DNA from: Dokdonella sp.
Lineage (GTDB): Bacteria > Pseudomonadota > Gammaproteobacteria > Xanthomonadales > Rhodanobacteraceae
Direction: 5' to 3'
Assembly: GCA_019634795.1 (NCBI GenBank)
Contig: JAHCAR010000001.1
Span: forward strand, 310,001-374,000
DNA: 64,000 nucleotides
The notes under the pieces were generated by a model, which saw only the letters and a program-made list of their open reading frames with translations, made no database searches and was not told the origin of the DNA. The translations under genes were made by a program, and so were the position numbers. This document shows, in pieces, positions 8,039 to 17,621 of the stretch; position 1 is the first letter of the stretch; the number at the start of each line of letters is the position of its first letter.

Positions 8039-10417
8039 CTACCCCCGCAACTTCGCGTTGTAACCAGTCGCCAGAGCGGAGACCGCCAGATCGACGCACT
8101 GATCTGCGTCCTGATCCGTTAGGGTGCGTGAACGGTCCTGCAAAATCAAGCCCATAGCGAGACTTCTGACACCATTTCCGAGATTCGGACCGGCATATCG
8201 GTCGAACAGCATGAGGTCGACCAGGCGCTCGCCCACGGCCGCACGGATCGCCGCCGCAATATCCGCATACGGAATGTCGTCGGACAGAACCACGGCAATG
8301 TCTCGCCGCAGCGACGGAAAGCGCGAGACCGGTTCGGCCGACGGCACGCTGCGCCGGCTCGCGCCGTCCAGCTCGAGTTCGAACACATAGACGTCGTCGT
8401 CGAGATCGAGCGCCCTTTGCAGGCGCGGATCGAGCTGGCCGACCCAGCCGACTGCGCGATCACCCCGCCAGACCGTTGCCGCGCGTCCCGGGTGCAGCCA
8501 GCCCGGCCCACCCGGCAGGAAGCGGAATTCGCCGGCATCGGCGCCGGTCAGGGCGAGCATCGAGACGAGATCGCCCTTGATGTCGAAAAAGTCGAGCTTG
8601 CGGCGCGGTTCCGCCCATTGTTCGGCGCTCGCATCACCGAGGGCGACTGCCGCAACGCGCTCGACCTCGATCGGTGCGGCCTCGCCGGCGTGATAGCTGC
8701 GTCCGACCTCGAACAGGCGCACGCGTGGCTGCTGGCGCTTGCGATTGCCGTCCAGTGCGGCGACCAGGCCCGGCAGCAGGCTGGTGCGCATGACCGCCAT
8801 TTCGGCGGACAACGGATTGGCCAGCGCGATCGGCGCGTCGTGCAGCCCCCAGGTACGCAGCAGTTCGGCCTCGACGAACGCGTAGCAGATTGCCTCGGAA
8901 TAACCCCGCGAGGCGAGCTGCTCGCGGATCCGGTGGGCGGCGACCCGATTCTCGGGAAGGGCCGCCGGCGTGATCTCGCCGCGCGGCGCCTGCACCGGAA
9001 TCCTCGAGTAGCCGTGGATGCGTGCGACCTCCTCGATCAGGTCTTCCTCGATGGCGATATCGAAACGGGCCGAAGGCGGAGTCGCCATCCAGCCTTGCGC
9101 CGATTCGGCGACCTGCATGCCCAGTGAATCGAGGATGCGCGCGACTTCGGCATCGGCCACTTCGTGGCCGAGGATGCGACGCAGGCGCTCGCGGCGCAGG
9201 GTGACCTCGACGCGCTTCGGCAGGTGCTCGGCGGCAAGCGCCTCGGTCAGCGGACCGGCCTTGCCGCCGGCAATCCCGAGCAGCAATGCGGTGGCGCGCT
9301 CGATCGCCTGGCGCGGAAGTTCGGCGTCGACGCCGCGCTCGAAGCGGTGCGAGGCGTCGGTATGCAGGCCGAGACGACGTGCGCGACCGCTGATGCAGGC
9401 CGGCGCAAAGTGCGCCGCCTCGAGGAAGACGTCCACGGTCGCGTCGGTCACGCGGGTTTCGTGGCCGCCCATGATGCCGGCCAGCGCCACGGCCTTCCTG
9501 CCATCGGCGATGACGAGGAATTCCTCGTCGAGCGCGACCGTGCGTTCGTCGAGCAGTTTCAGCGCTTCGCCACGACTCGCCCGCCGCACGACCAGCGGAC
9601 CCGCCAGGCTCTGTGCGTCGAATGCGTGCATCGGCTGCCCGGTCTCGATCATCACGTAGTTGGCGATGTCGACCAGCACGCTGATCGGGCGGATGCCGGC
9701 GCGGCGCAACCGATCCTTGAGCCACTGCGGCGTGGCGGCCCTGGCGTCGAGACCGCGTATGAGGCGGCCGCAATAGCGAGGACAGTCGACCGGCGCGGCC
9801 AGCTCGACCGCAAGCGTGTCGGCCAGCGCGGCCGCCACTTCGGAAATCCGCGGAATCTTCGGTCTCGAGCCGAATTCCGCCGCAACTTCCCTCGCCAGGC
9901 CGTGCATGCCGAGGCAGTCGGGCCGATTCGGCGTCAGCCCAAGTTCGATCGCCGCATCGGGAAAACCCATGGCCTCGGCCAGCGGCCGGCCGACCACGGC
10001 ATCCGCGGCCAGTTCGAACAGGCCATCGGCATCCGCATCGAAACCAAGCTCGCGTCCCGAACAGAGCATTCCGTTCGATGCGACGCCGCGCAGTTTCGCG
10101 GCCTTGATCGTGATCTCGCCGACGCGCGTGCCGACCGTGGCCAGCGGCGCCTTCAGCCCGACCCGCGCATTCGGCGCGCCACAGACGATCTGCAGCGGCT
10201 CGCCCCTGCCGATGTCGACCCGGCAGACCCTGAGCTTGTCGGCATCCGGATGCTTCTCGGCGGCGATGATCTCGCCGACGAGCACGCCATCGAGGGCCGC
10301 GCCGAGCACCTCGACACCCTCGACCTCGAGCCCGCTCATGGTAAGGCGCTCGACGAGTTCGTCCCGCCCTGCCGGGATGTCGACCAGTTCGCGGAGCCAG
10401 TTTTCGCTGAATTTCAT
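8039..10417 (-). CDS. pheT: Phenylalanyl-tRNA synthetase beta subunit
   Basis: A 792-residue beta chain of the (alpha-beta)2 phenylalanyl-tRNA synthetase. Visible in order: the N-terminal block [13 protein letters not shown], an EMAP/OB-type tRNA-binding domain (about 40-150, with [15 protein letters not shown]), the B3/B4 editing region, a B5 domain (about 400-475), the core fold, and a C-terminal anticodon-binding FDX domain ending in [10 protein letters not shown]. Length matches the family. It lies 158 bp after pheS, a gap holding a palindromic repeat, and runs directly into ihfA. Confidence 0.98.
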
Positions 10418-10429
10418 GGTTGAAGAGCC

Positions 10430-10571
10430 GAGAATGGGAAATGGGGAATGGAGAATGGGCTAGAAGCCGTTCGCGCGAATCGGCGGATCCGGAACGGGCT
10501 GGTCACCCGAAAGCCTGCAAATCTGTGAAAGGCCGGCATTCCGATTCCCCATTCCCCATTCTCCATTCCCG
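10430..10571. repeat. Inverted repeat of iterated GGGAATG words (copy 1)
   Basis: The pheS-pheT gap holds two arms. At 10430-10460 lies a run of GAATGGG/GGAATGG words; at 10543-10571 lies the near-reverse complement (ATTCCCC/ATTCTCC words). Together they could form a long imperfect hairpin inside the pheST transcript. The same words recur before uvrB. It looks like a small dispersed intergenic repeat grown by slippage, not an insertion sequence, since there is no transposase. Confidence 0.75.
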
Positions 10572-12397: not shown

Positions 12398-12919
12398 CTA
12401 CTTGTTCTTCTTTGGCGCGATCATCATGACCATCAGGCGGCCTTCCATGCGCGGGTACTGCTCGATCACTGCCTCTTCGGCGATGTCCGCCGCGATCTTC
12501 TTGACCATGGCGTCGCCGAGTTCCTGGTGCGCCATTTCGCGGCCGCGGAAACGGATGGTGATCTTGACCTTGTCGCCCTCGTCGAGGAAGCGGCGCAGGT
12601 TGCGCAGCTTGATCGCGTAGTCGCCAACGTCGGTGGTCGGACGGAACTTCAGTTCCTTGATCTCGACCTGCTTCTGCTTCTTCTTGGCCGCATGCGCCTT
12701 CTTCTGCGCATCGAACTTGAACTTGCCGAAATCCATGATCCGGCAAACCGGCGGATCGGCCGTAGGCTGGATCTCGACCAGATCCAGTCCGAGCTCTCCG
12801 GCCATCTCCAGGGCCTCGTCGCGCGAAAGAACGCCTACCTGTTCTCCGTCTGCGCCGATGACTCGTACCCGCGGAACGCGAATCTCGGTATTCCTGCGGT
12901 TTGCTTTTTCGGTTGCGAT
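12398..12919 (-). CDS. infC: Translation initiation factor IF-3, probable AUC start
   Basis: A 173-residue factor that binds the 30S subunit and checks start-codon pairing. The first ATG in frame (12805) would delete part of the N-terminal domain. The frame stays open upstream and encodes the missing family sequence ([17 protein letters not shown], then [12 protein letters not shown]). The full protein begins at an ATC (12917-12919) with AGGAG eight bases before it. Rare AUU/AUC/AUA starts are the known device by which IF-3 represses its own synthesis. The C-terminal domain (about 85-173) is intact. It lies 42 bp after thrS. Confidence 0.95.
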
Positions 12920-12961: not shown

Positions 12962-14866
12962 TCAGGCGACGGCAGCCTCGGACTTCAGGCGCTCGGCGAA
13001 GGCACTGATCGAGAACGATCCGAGGTCTTCCCCTGAACGCGCACGCACAGCAACGGCCCCCGCCTCCTTTTCGCGGTCGCCAACGACCAGCAGATAGGGA
13101 ACCTTGTTAAGCGTGTGTTCGCGGATTTTATATCCGATCTTCTCGTTTCGCAAATCGGCCTCCACCCTGAACCCTTGCGCGACAAGGGTTTGCATGGCTT
13201 CGGCGGCGAAATCGGCCTGCGCGTCGGTAATATTGAGGATTACAGCCTGAACCGGGGCCAGCCAGGTCGGAAACTGGCCGGCATGGTGCTCGATCAGGAT
13301 GCCGATGAAACGCTCCATCGAACCGACGATGGCCCGGTGCAGCATGACCGGAACGTGCCGGGCCGAATCCTCGCCCACGTATTCGGCGCCGAGCCTGCCC
13401 GGCATCGAAAAGTCGACCTGCATCGTGCCGACCTGCCAGGCGCGACCCAGCGAATCGCGCATGTGGTACTCGATTTTCGGCCCGTAGAAAGCCCCCTCGC
13501 CCGGCAATTCCTGCCATTCGACCCCCGAACTGCGCAGGGCCGTGCGCAGGGTTTCCTCGGATTTGTCCCAGATCTCGTCGGAACCGATCCGCTTGTCCGG
13601 GCGCAGGGCGATCTTCAGGGCGATCTCGCTGAAGCCGAAATGCGCGTAGACCTGCATGGCCTGGCGGTGGAAGGCGACCACTTCGCCCTCGATCTGCTCT
13701 TCCGTGCAAAAGATATGGCCATCATCCTGGACGAAGCCGCGCACGCGCATGAGGCCGTGCAGCGCGCCGGACGGCTCGTTGCGCGTGCACGAGCCGAATT
13801 CGCCATAGCGGATCGGCAGGTCGCGGTAGCTGCGCAGACCGTGGTTGTAGACCATGACATGGCCGGGACAATTCATCGGCTTGAGCGCGTAGGTGCGCTT
13901 CTCCGACTCGGTGAAGAACATGTTGTCCTTGTAGTTGTCCCAGTGACCGGTCCTTTCCCACAGGCTCCTGTCGAGGATCTGCGGGCACTTGACCTCCTGG
14001 TAACCCGATTCCCGGTAGACCTGGCGCATGTACTGCTCGACGACCTGCCAGATCTGCCAGCCCTTCGGGTGCCAGAACACCAGGCCCGGTGCCTCTTCCT
14101 GCATGTGGAACAGGTCGAGCTGCTTGCCGAGCTTGCGGTGGTCGCGCTTTTCGGCCTCCTCGATGCGCAGGATGTAGGCGGCGAGCTGCTTCTTGTCGGC
14201 CCAGGCCGTGCCGTAGATGCGCTGCAGCTGCTCGTTCTTGGCGTCGCCACGCCAGTAGGCGCCGGAGATGCGGGTCAGCTTGAAGGCCTTGAGGAAACGC
14301 GTGTTCGGCACGTGCGGGCCGCGACACATGTCGACGTATTCCTGGTGGTAGTAGAGGCCCATGGCCTTCTCGTCGGGCATGTCCTCGATCAGGCGCAGCT
14401 TGTAGTCCTCGCCGCGGGCCTTGAATTCGGCAATGACCTCGTCGCGCGGCTTGACCCGCTTGATCACGTCATATTCGGTATCGATCAGCTCGACCATGCG
14501 CTTTTCGATCGCGGCCAGATCCTCGGGCGTGAACGGCCGCTGGTACCAGATGTCGTAGTAGAAACCTTCCTCGATGACCGGCCCGATGACCATCTTGGCG
14601 TCGGGAAACAGCTGCTTGACCGCATGGCCGACCAGGTGCGCGCAGGAATGGCGGATGATCTCGACACCCTCCTCGTCCTTCGGCGTGATGATCTGCAGCT
14701 TGGCGTCATGGTCGATGCGATCGCTCGCGTCGACCAGTCGGCCGTCGACCTTGCCGGCAACCGTGGCCTTGGCCAGGCCGGCGCCGATCGAGGCCGCGAC
14801 GTCGGCGACACTGACCGCGCTTTCGAACTGGCGGACGCTGCCATCGGGGAGAGTGATGTTGATCAT
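12962..14866 (-). CDS. thrS: Threonyl-tRNA synthetase
   Basis: A 634-residue class II synthetase that charges tRNA-Thr. Domains in order: TGS (about 1-60, [15 protein letters not shown]), the N2 editing domain with the zinc-type [16 protein letters not shown] and CRGPHVPNT motifs, the catalytic core with motif 2 ([20 protein letters not shown]) and motif 3, and the anticodon-binding domain at the C-terminus. The ATG at 14866 is chosen over longer forms because it gives the family start MINITLPDG and has GGAG in front. It is the first structural gene of the thrS-infC-rpmI-rplT-pheST-ihfA series and has its own attenuator-like leader. Confidence 0.98.
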
Positions 14867-14891
14867 GGGATTCGGGACTCCGGAAAAACAA

Positions 14892-14913
14892 AAAGGGCGC
14901 CGAAGCGCCCTTT
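14892..14913 (-). terminator. Intrinsic terminator inside the thrS leader
   Basis: Read on the minus strand, AAAGGGCGC, loop TTCG and GCGCCCTTT are followed by a T-rich run (CTTTTTGTTTTT). The T-run ends about 15-20 bases before the thrS ATG, so the hairpin would stop transcription before the gene unless bypassed. The Thr-rich leader peptide stop codon lies 30 bases upstream. CGAAGC between the two is complementary to the GCTTCG at the hairpin tip and may contribute to an antiterminator. Confidence 0.75.
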
Positions 14914-14942
14914 GTCTTGTAGTGTGCTTCGCGTCGGTTCGG

Positions 14943-15044
14943 TCAGTGGGCAAAGGTTCGCGTCATGGTGATCGTGTTCGTTCGAACTACGGTTCCTGCT
15001 GAGTTGAGGTTGCGGGTACTGCGTGGCGCGATGCGGGTGTCCAT
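14943..15044 (-). CDS. Candidate threonine-rich leader peptide of thrS
   Basis: A short frame (33 codons from the ATG at 15044) ends in TGA 30 bases before the leader terminator. Eight of its 33 residues are Thr, and near the end Thr alternates with other residues five times (TNTITMTRT, then FAH). This resembles the thrL peptide of Escherichia coli. Stalling of a ribosome here when charged tRNA-Thr is low would favour read-through into thrS. Weak point: neither this ATG nor the inner ATG at 14966 has a clear ribosome-binding site, so the true start is open. Confidence 0.6.
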
Positions 15045-15072
15045 TGCGAAGCTGTGCGAAGAGAGCGTGAAC

Positions 15073-15290
15073 GCTTCTTCGGCCTTGCCGGGCGGTCCTA
15101 CTTTACCGGCTTGGAGCGAAAGAGCCGACAATACTCTTTCGCTTCGCCGGTCTTTTCTTCGTTACCGGCCTGAAGGCCAAGAGCCGACATGCCTCTTTCG
15201 CTTTGCCGGGCGGTCCTTCGTTTCCGACTTGAAGCGCAAGAGCCGACAATCTCTTTCGCTTCGCCAGGCGATCCTTCGTTTCCGGCGATT
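15073..15290. repeat. Tandem ~59-bp repeat, about 3.7 copies
   Basis: Diverged copies begin near 15073, 15134, 15193 and 15251, the last truncated. Each contains CTCTTTCGCTT, a GCCGGGCGGTCCT-like core, a CCGGCTTGAAGCG-like part and AAGAGCCGACA. At the first junction GCGAAAGAG (15116-15124) and CTCTTTCGC (15134-15142) form a perfect 9-bp dyad; the other junctions form weaker ones. No coding potential is convincing. It lies between tRNA-Val and the thrS leader and may affect read-through between them. Confidence 0.8.
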
Positions 15291-15292
15291 GT

Positions 15293-15367
15293 TGGTGGGC
15301 GCGACAGGGATCGAACCTGTGACCCCTACCATGTCAAGGTAGTGCTCTACCGCTGAGCTACGCGCCC
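15293..15367 (-). tRNA. tRNA-Val (GAC anticodon)
   Basis: A 75-nt gene including CCA. Acceptor arms GGGCGCG and CGCGCCC pair, the anticodon loop TTGACAT gives GAC, and the T-loop is GTTCGATCC. A possible promoter upstream has TTGTGC (15409-15414, minus strand) and TTAATC (15387-15392) spaced by 16 bases. Confidence 0.97.
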
Positions 15368-15496
15368 CTGAATACGGGGCCGCGGAGATTAACCGAGTCT
15401 GCGGCGGTGCACAAGCCGGGGCTAGCGATTGGGGTGATATTTCGACGGCCCAGGTGCCACTACGCACACCGGACCGTTCGAGCTTCGACCCCGGCC

Positions 15497-15581
15497 GGGA
15501 ATGGGGAATGGAGAATGGGGAATCGGCAGAGCACGGGGGCAACGCCTGACCATTCCCTATTCCCCATTCCCCACTCCCGGC
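15497..15581. repeat. Inverted repeat of iterated GGGAATG words (copy 2)
   Basis: The left arm (15497-15525) holds repeated GGAATGG/GAATGGG words. The right arm (15551-15581) holds the complementary ATTCCCC words. It sits just after the uvrB stop codon, so its hairpin may end or protect the uvrB transcript. It is the same family as the repeat between pheS and pheT. Confidence 0.75.
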
Positions 15582-15584
15582 CCT

Positions 15585-17621
<2,037 letters not shown>

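Follow-up and report, generated by a model that had tools for sequence, protein, structure and literature searches.

A short threonine-codon leader frame and terminator before thrS in Lysobacterales: a probable ribosome-mediated transcription attenuator

The thrS locus and its leader region

The DNA analyzed here (hereafter, the window) is a stretch of 64,000 nucleotides from a Dokdonella sp. genome, taken from a draft assembly of 51 contigs. Its minus strand carries, in order, tRNA-Val(GAC), a set of repeats, the leader region, thrS, infC, rpmI, rplT, pheS, and pheT, the names from thrS to pheT being presumed from the encoded proteins and the gene order. The window thrS is matched at full length within its family, and its start was set at ATG 14866; the open frame itself spans 12962..14953. 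The features are as follows, with type A being one of 2 leader types defined below.

15293..15367, minus strand: tRNA-Val(GAC), the nearest gene upstream of the leader, on the same strand
15075-15284, between tRNA-Val and the leader: four direct repeats with a spacing of 58-59 bases
14994..14997, minus strand: the sequence AGGA, candidate ribosome-binding site of the leader frame
14973..14991, minus strand: conserved type A hairpin CGU-A-GUUC-loop-GAAC-ACG, just 5' of the leader ATG
14943..14966, minus strand: leader frame ATG ACG CGA ACC TTT GCC CAC TGA (MTRTFAH*), with Thr at codons 2 and 4
14884..14913, minus strand: intrinsic terminator, with the stem-loop at 14913-14892 and the T tract at 14894-14884
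14878..14881, minus strand: the sequence GGAG, probable ribosome-binding site of thrS
12962..14866, minus strand: thrS, threonyl-tRNA synthetase, with its ATG at 14866-14864, the first gene of the operon

Several other elements surround these features. The direct repeats look like a local expansion, because two related loci (L004 and L005) show, by eye, at most about one unit of the 58-59 base repeat. Between the tRNA-Val and the end of what we take to be a UvrB-like gene, a 37-base inverted repeat with GGGAATGG-type units occupies 15493-15582, and similar text is seen in translations near 10414-10566. The start of infC is apparently an ATC at 12917-12919, behind an AGGAG, and the ATC frame runs into the IF3 protein; infC of E. 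coli likewise has a non-standard start codon. When scanned against Rfam at gathering thresholds, the whole window returns tRNAs only.

The initial annotation had placed a strong terminator just before the thrS ATG, and such an element is present, T tract included. Its stem, AAAGGGCGC-TTCG-GCGCCCTTT, begins 29 bases after the leader stop and folds with -15.8 kcal/mol. Between 14800 and 15600, there are 3 terminator-like sites on both strands compared with a shuffle mean of 1.1, and the one at 14913-14884 is the sole site on the minus strand.

Short threonine frames in related genomes

We detected thrS in 193 of 197 genomes of the window's family. Upstream DNA was compared for 171 loci, i.e. 90 from the family (L002-L031 and L112-L171), 80 from named genomes (L032-L111), and the window (L001), and the thrS start could be located automatically in 133 of these. 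A total of 94 distinct leaders matched either of 2 conserved motifs, the matching of which did not require Thr. Type A, the window's type, reads GGAGYCGUAGUUC-nnnn-GAACACGAUCACC-AUG-ACG-CGA-ACC (13 leaders), and type B reads AGGUGG-hairpin-GAGNGUGNGAC-AUG-nnn-ACN (81 leaders). Family loci contribute 76 of them and named relatives 18, including Lysobacter, Luteimonas, Pseudoxanthomonas, Thermomonas, and Arenimonas. With the loci missed by the motifs read afterwards, a leader is recognized by pattern or eye in 88 of the 90 family loci; L155 has none, none is seen in L007, where little sequence remains before the contig ends, and L152 carries an additional type A leader.

These leaders decide which frame matters. 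The initial annotation had read a 33-codon frame with 8 Thr upstream of thrS, and this frame does exist on the minus strand (ATG 15044 to TGA 14945-14943). Eight or more Thr occur in 239 of the 80,726 overlapping 33-codon open stretches found in the six frames of the window, i.e. the count is unusual but not decisive alone, and the comparative evidence decides. The long frame is not conserved among relatives, where the conserved frame corresponds to the 7 codons of MTRTFAH, and we reject the 33-codon frame as the functional peptide. Specifically, in L008, L011, L013, L014, L216, L218, and L362 (all type A), no ATG, GTG, TTG, or CTG occurs in frame upstream of the inner ATG before a stop. As for the Thr run TNTITMTRT that had also been pointed out, its inner ATG is conserved, as is the Thr at codon 2, and NTIT is the 3' strand of the hairpin plus spacer read in frame.

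The frame has 7-9 codons in 90 of the 94 distinct leaders (8 codons in 70), and all 94 retain Thr at the regulatory codon despite third-base changes. It stands at codon 3 in 81/81 type B leaders (ACT 63, ACG 15, ACA 2, and ACC 1) and at codon 2 in 13/13 type A leaders (ACG 12 and ACT 1). Of the type B leaders, 73 of 81 have a second Thr, at codon 4 or 5, as do 11 of 13 type A leaders at codon 4; L009, L030, and L216 have no Thr at codon 4. In an alignment of type B (A1, with 60 of the 62 sequences left after near-duplicate removal, L124 and L126 being excluded for their long frames), the frame past its ATG has invariant columns only at the first two bases of Thr codon 3 (A and C), and across leaders the residues outside Thr/Arg positions are highly variable. 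A terminator, i.e. a hairpin and at least 4 consecutive T, precedes thrS in 90 of the 94. The retention of both Thr codons and terminator in homologous leaders had been set beforehand as the point on which the reading should be judged, and both are retained at these frequencies. Four loci (L010, L012, L037, and L038) were dropped from later tests as terminator-unclear, except that the tests of protector and 5'-arm pairing instead kept L010 and dropped L041.

A hairpin is also conserved before the leader start codon, with loops mostly of 3-5 nt that are often GNRA-like by eye. In type B, 96% of 476 cells are paired, 5 of 8 pairs have changes on both sides, and 0/500 shuffles are as high on any of five measures. 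The support for type A is thinner because the stem hardly varies: its 7 pairs are formed in 119/119 cells (100%) of 17 sequences, both-side changes affect 2 of 7 pairs (6/500 shuffles), the covariation score is reached by 0/500 shuffles, and the number of further pair types shows no excess (500/500 shuffles). An additional C-G to U-A change is seen by eye in L152. Folded alone, the window hairpin has -6.4 kcal/mol and is not unusual, as 29/200 shuffles are as good.

The initial annotation had cautioned that the peptide has no clear ribosome-binding site, and in type A none is present at normal distance. The candidate AGGA lies 27 nt from the leader ATG in sequence and about 8 nt from it with the hairpin looped out, and the last two bases (GA) of the window AGGA are nearly invariant in the type A alignment (A3).

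At the level of the order, a model of type B (R1) has matches in 111 of the 250 genomes scanned, in 40 of 77 genera, and 101 of these matches are strong. Among the ten weak ones (E above ~1e-9), eight adjoin thrS and G571 does not; G568 is a type A leader. Within the class, R1 matches 9 of 321 genomes, with 3 strong matches that all fall in the sister family f2 and six weak ones, two of which (L175 and L176) have no thrS in the frames listed. Type A was modelled apart (R2), because R1 does not significantly find the window (E 0.34). R2 matches 21 of the 250 genomes of the order, 15 of them strongly (families f1, f177, and f178), and has a single strong match in the window's genome, the next best having E 0.46. 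One genome (G006) harbors two thrS genes of full length, which share 69% and 50% identity with the query, and its single R1 match adjoins the first.

Reading by eye 27 order loci picked from these genome sets reveals a short Thr frame before thrS in 22, with L210 and L215 lacking a clear terminator; L224, L225, L228, L233, and L236 have no such frame. Examples of frames with neither motif are MNVSFRTTT (L226), MMLSTRTFID (L227), MASTLTTVD (L230), MKTTTKN (L234), and MTSTTT (L235). In three loci (L227, L229, and L234), 6 bases separate the leader ATG from a TATAAT-like box upstream, and this short distance suggests leaderless translation of their frames.

A different frame occurs in Burkholderiales (assigned by name, with Variovorax checked), where MTPRT... 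starts 129-187 bases before thrS in 14 of the 62 named loci L050-L111. Carriers of MTPRT are L050-L060, L064, L067, L075, L249, L330, L331, L343, and L344, and MTPLT is carried by L338 and L340. The printed leaders read GAGAAAGGC...GGTT-ATGACACCGCGAACT, followed by a terminator. An order-wide draw of 60 genomes around L249 has MTP[RL]T in 8 of the 30 loci kept, its filter having missed Variovorax loci that were found otherwise to carry the frame. This leader appears to be a second, separate type of thrS attenuator.

A class survey with about one region per family covered 89 regions, of which 87 had a start and 10 passed a simple filter on Thr content; starts were often guessed in short regions, and a few leaders may have been missed. 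L240 and L241 (family f2) and L249 are judged real, and L259, L273, L275, L290, L297, L315, and L326 are chance passes. Five of the latter have GTG or TTG starts only; L259 and L315 have ATG frames, but these end 140 and 186 nt before thrS and were counted as chance. A Thr leader before thrS is apparent through much of Lysobacterales (Xanthomonadales), with the other form in part of Burkholderiales. Dokdonella fugitiva (L085) is placed in Rhodanobacteraceae, Lysobacterales, in the NCBI taxonomy.

Antiterminator pairing and simulated ribosome states

The RNA after the leader stop codon is complementary to the terminator of its own species, over the end of the 5' arm, the loop, and the start of the 3' arm. 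In the window, the 2 arms of this candidate antiterminator are

14926..14934, minus strand: antiterminator 5' arm ACGCGAAGC, beginning 9 nt past the stop codon
14898..14906, minus strand: antiterminator 3' arm GCTTCGGCG, made of the terminator 5'-arm end, the loop, and the 3'-arm start

and the duplex of 14934-14926 with 14898-14906 has -12.4 kcal/mol. When the terminator 3' arm is incomplete, the nascent RNA of the window folds to the antiterminator, with -9.8 kcal/mol (7/200 shuffles as good).

The terminator loop varies by species, and the linker between stop codon and terminator follows it. For example, GCGCaGAGC is found with GCUCgGCGC in L019 and GCGCaAAGC with GCUUgGCGC in L116, and further matches are GCGCGACGC with GCGUUGCGC (L015) and CACCGG with CCGGUG (L018). 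Over 90 leaders, the linker-terminator duplex has a mean of -15.45 kcal/mol compared with -14.0 kcal/mol when species are permuted, and 0/5000 permutations are as good; for type A alone (n = 13), 5/5000 are. No excess pairing with the terminator is seen for the 3' part of the linker (2981/5000 permutations). Because relatedness inflates permutation tests, we also swapped partners within disjoint nearest pairs with different loops. The own partner is better in 28 of 42 pairs and the swapped one in 12, with 2 ties (sign P = 0.008, Wilcoxon P = 0.003), and a narrower target gives 24, 13, and 5, respectively (sign P = 0.049, Wilcoxon P = 0.0016). The antiterminator arm starts at most 12 nt past the stop in 88/90 leaders, compared with 76% with shuffled linkers, and this 5' arm would lie within the footprint of a ribosome at the stop codon.

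Other pairings were considered as well. An antiterminator formed with the terminator 5' arm alone was rejected, as it shows no excess over permutation (1820/2000 for type B and 112/2000 for type A). A possible protector pairing, in which the linker would bind the segment preceding the hairpin and the antiterminator arm would be held off when no ribosome is present, is matched by 1/2000 permutations in type B and 463/2000 in type A, and has -3.3 kcal/mol in the window. In the close-pair test over all leaders (44 pairs), the own partner is better in 14, the swapped one in 18, and 12 are ties; we do not rely on this pairing.

Ribosome states were simulated by folding with a footprint of 30 nt blocked, values for shuffled linkers being means of five shuffles each. 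In type B, the mean terminator probability is 0.438 with a stall at the first Thr, 0.695 with the ribosome at the stop codon, and 0.461 without a ribosome, compared with 0.542, 0.580, and 0.515 for shuffled linkers. The stop-minus-stall difference exceeds 0.3 in 29/77 type B leaders vs 8/77 shuffled. Type A has 0.717 at the stall and 0.873 at the stop (shuffled 0.830 and 0.880), the difference exceeding 0.3 in 3/13 leaders vs 1 shuffled. The initial annotation had proposed folding the leader for mutually exclusive hairpins, and the outcome is divided, i.e. the type B set shifts toward the terminator at the stop, but the window stays at an equilibrium terminator probability of 0.95-0.99 in every ribosome state, with no switching. 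A mutually exclusive antiterminator is, as such, a feature of the leader set, and the window alone does not switch at equilibrium. Specifically, the window antiterminator (-9.8 kcal/mol) is weaker than the UUCG terminator (-15.8 kcal/mol), and a switch in the window would have to be kinetic, dependent on timing, because the finished terminator outcompetes the antiterminator at equilibrium.

Transcript source, proposed mechanism, and known systems

Of 17 type A loci, 16 have a tRNA-Val(GAC) gene upstream in the same orientation, the exception being L212. In type B, the gene is there in 3 of the 19 loci scanned out of 81 (L017, L018, and L092), and it is also upstream of the leaders in the divergent L220, L222, and L235. 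Only 9-16 nt separate the tRNA from the hairpin in L013, L014, and L216, which leaves no promoter space, and judging from this gap the leader must in these loci be transcribed together with the tRNA. The gap is about 300 bases in the window, where we find no minus-strand terminator other than the leader's within 14800-15600. No promoter-like site is found in that range and none before the tRNA either, so the scan is insensitive here. Co-transcription of tRNA-Val and leader is likely in the window, and the tRNA-Val transcript probably feeds the type A attenuator. A sigma-70-like site (at least 9 of 12 positions, at most 140 bases upstream) is present in 44/77 type B leaders (control 1.4%) and in 0/13 type A leaders.

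For type A, a joint reading is that thrS-infC-rpmI-rplT-pheST is driven from the tRNA-Val gene, that the Thr attenuator is the terminator of that tRNA, and that looping-out of the hairpin brings the leader ribosome-binding site to the start codon. We hold this combination tentatively, as a possibility that falls somewhat short of an even chance. If true, one switch would split polymerases between a tRNA-only transcript and the operon for ThrRS, IF3, L35, L20, and PheRS.

The initial annotation had suggested a ribosome-mediated attenuator of thrS, and we now consider it highly likely that the thrS operon is controlled by ribosome-mediated attenuation of transcription. The comparison brings out that frame, Thr codons, hairpin, and terminator are conserved and that the antiterminator pairing is matched to each species; from these we infer that the frame is translated, that ribosomes stall on it, and that expression responds, with consequences for the genes downstream of thrS. 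A ribosome would initiate on the 7-codon frame MTRTFAH. With ample charged tRNA-Thr, it would reach the stop and mask 14934-14926, the terminator at 14913-14884 would form, and transcription would stop before thrS. With charged tRNA-Thr scarce, it would stall at the Thr codons, and the post-stop RNA would stay free to pair with the emerging terminator loop and arms, giving read-through into thrS-infC-rpmI-rplT-pheST. In this way, the cell would very probably make more synthetase when charged threonine tRNA is short.

The position of the tRNA-Val(GAC) gene, upstream on the same strand, invites another explanation, i.e. that the terminator simply ends the tRNA-Val transcript or is a general intergenic terminator, with the Thr codons incidental. 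The leader terminator is indeed the first minus-strand terminator-like site after the tRNA (14800-15600). We nevertheless regard this as very improbable, given that a Thr codon varying in its third base is kept in every one of the 94 leaders, that the frame length hardly changes, and that type B keeps frame and terminator yet seldom has the tRNA nearby in the loci scanned. It is about equally hard to credit that the short transcript acts in trans as a small RNA, or that the peptide itself acts, with thrS read-through being secondary. Trans roles of terminated attenuator RNAs and leader peptides are known elsewhere, as for trpL of Sinorhizobium, but here the peptide residues vary beyond the Thr/Arg positions, the leaders examined sit directly upstream of thrS, and R2 has one strong match in the window's genome. 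These points leave room for an additional trans role, which the leader may have.

Autoregulation by ThrRS through a tRNA-Thr-like RNA has a precedent at the same gene, as E. coli has a tRNA-like operator before thrS, and could draw on the conserved hairpin near the leader start codon. That hairpin stands before the leader frame, however, and not before thrS (in the window, it ends 107 nt before the thrS ATG and has a 4-nt loop), and its loops are mostly shorter than the 7-nt anticodon loop. No mimic of the tRNA-Thr anticodon arm was seen on inspection near the window thrS ribosome-binding site, which is preceded by the terminator and T tract. Hairpins just before the thrS ribosome-binding site are seen in the Pseudomonas-type loci L065, L072, and L087 (e.g. 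GTGACC-TTTGGTAGG-GGTCAC in L072), where the scan listed no Thr frame; they resemble the tRNA-Thr anticodon arm, fitting E. coli-type control. An operator of this kind would leave the Thr codons, terminator, and antiterminator of our leaders unexplained, and there is very little chance that it accounts for them. Attenuation by ribosome stalling is the reading that we retain.

The thrS leader has, at the sequence level, the features of classical leader-peptide attenuators. As in the thr attenuator of E. coli, Thr codons in a short frame are followed by a stop, an intrinsic terminator, and a competing antiterminator. That attenuator governs thrABC, whereas this leader would govern thrS; its peptide, thrL, has a long Thr/Ile run, whereas the thrS leader has 7-9 codons with mostly 2-3 Thr and is, to our knowledge, among the shortest attenuator peptides known. 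The hairpin before the start codon and an antiterminator that takes in the terminator loop and arms also set it apart. The leader of the E. coli thr operon is Rfam family RF00506, which has no match in the window (gathering thresholds) nor in ten related loci (E up to 1). A T-box, suggested by the GGUGG...CGCG of type B, was rejected, as no Rfam match was found in the same searches. The ten loci returned only tRNAs and three sub-threshold microRNA matches, i.e. the RNA element is one that Rfam scans of the window and these loci do not find.

The E. coli thrS operator is the textbook case of synthetase autoregulation, a tRNA mimic that is bound by the protein and acts on translation. It shares with our leader the gene and control at the RNA level, and has no leader peptide. 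Attenuators of synthetase genes are in print for pheST of gammaproteobacteria and for trpS and leuS of Streptomyces (PMC1262725); as described there, these are likewise under leader-peptide control, with a different amino acid and gene. For Streptomyces lividans thrL-thrS, PMC8079986 reports an 18-codon, Thr-containing, leaderless leader (MKRVRPFLETTPGFVPAR) with no clear Rho-independent terminator, which shares with ours a Thr leader peptide before thrS and differs in its actinobacterial host, its length, and the terminator. In a survey of premature terminators (PMC2965389), the single mention of ThrRS in the main text concerns E. coli. None of the literature searched describes a thrS leader peptide from Proteobacteria, and one may already have been predicted computationally (Vitreschak 2004 and the predicted attenuators listed in Table S8 of PMC2965389 lie outside its coverage).

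The leader is unusual in its sensor of 7-9 codons, in the conserved hairpin that separates the start codon from a segment resembling a ribosome-binding site, and, for type A, in probably being fed by transcription from a tRNA gene. The same gene appears to be controlled by different routes, as much of Lysobacterales and part of Burkholderiales very probably use ribosome stalling, compared with the operator of E. coli, which would make this a clear example of one conserved operon whose mode of regulation has switched.
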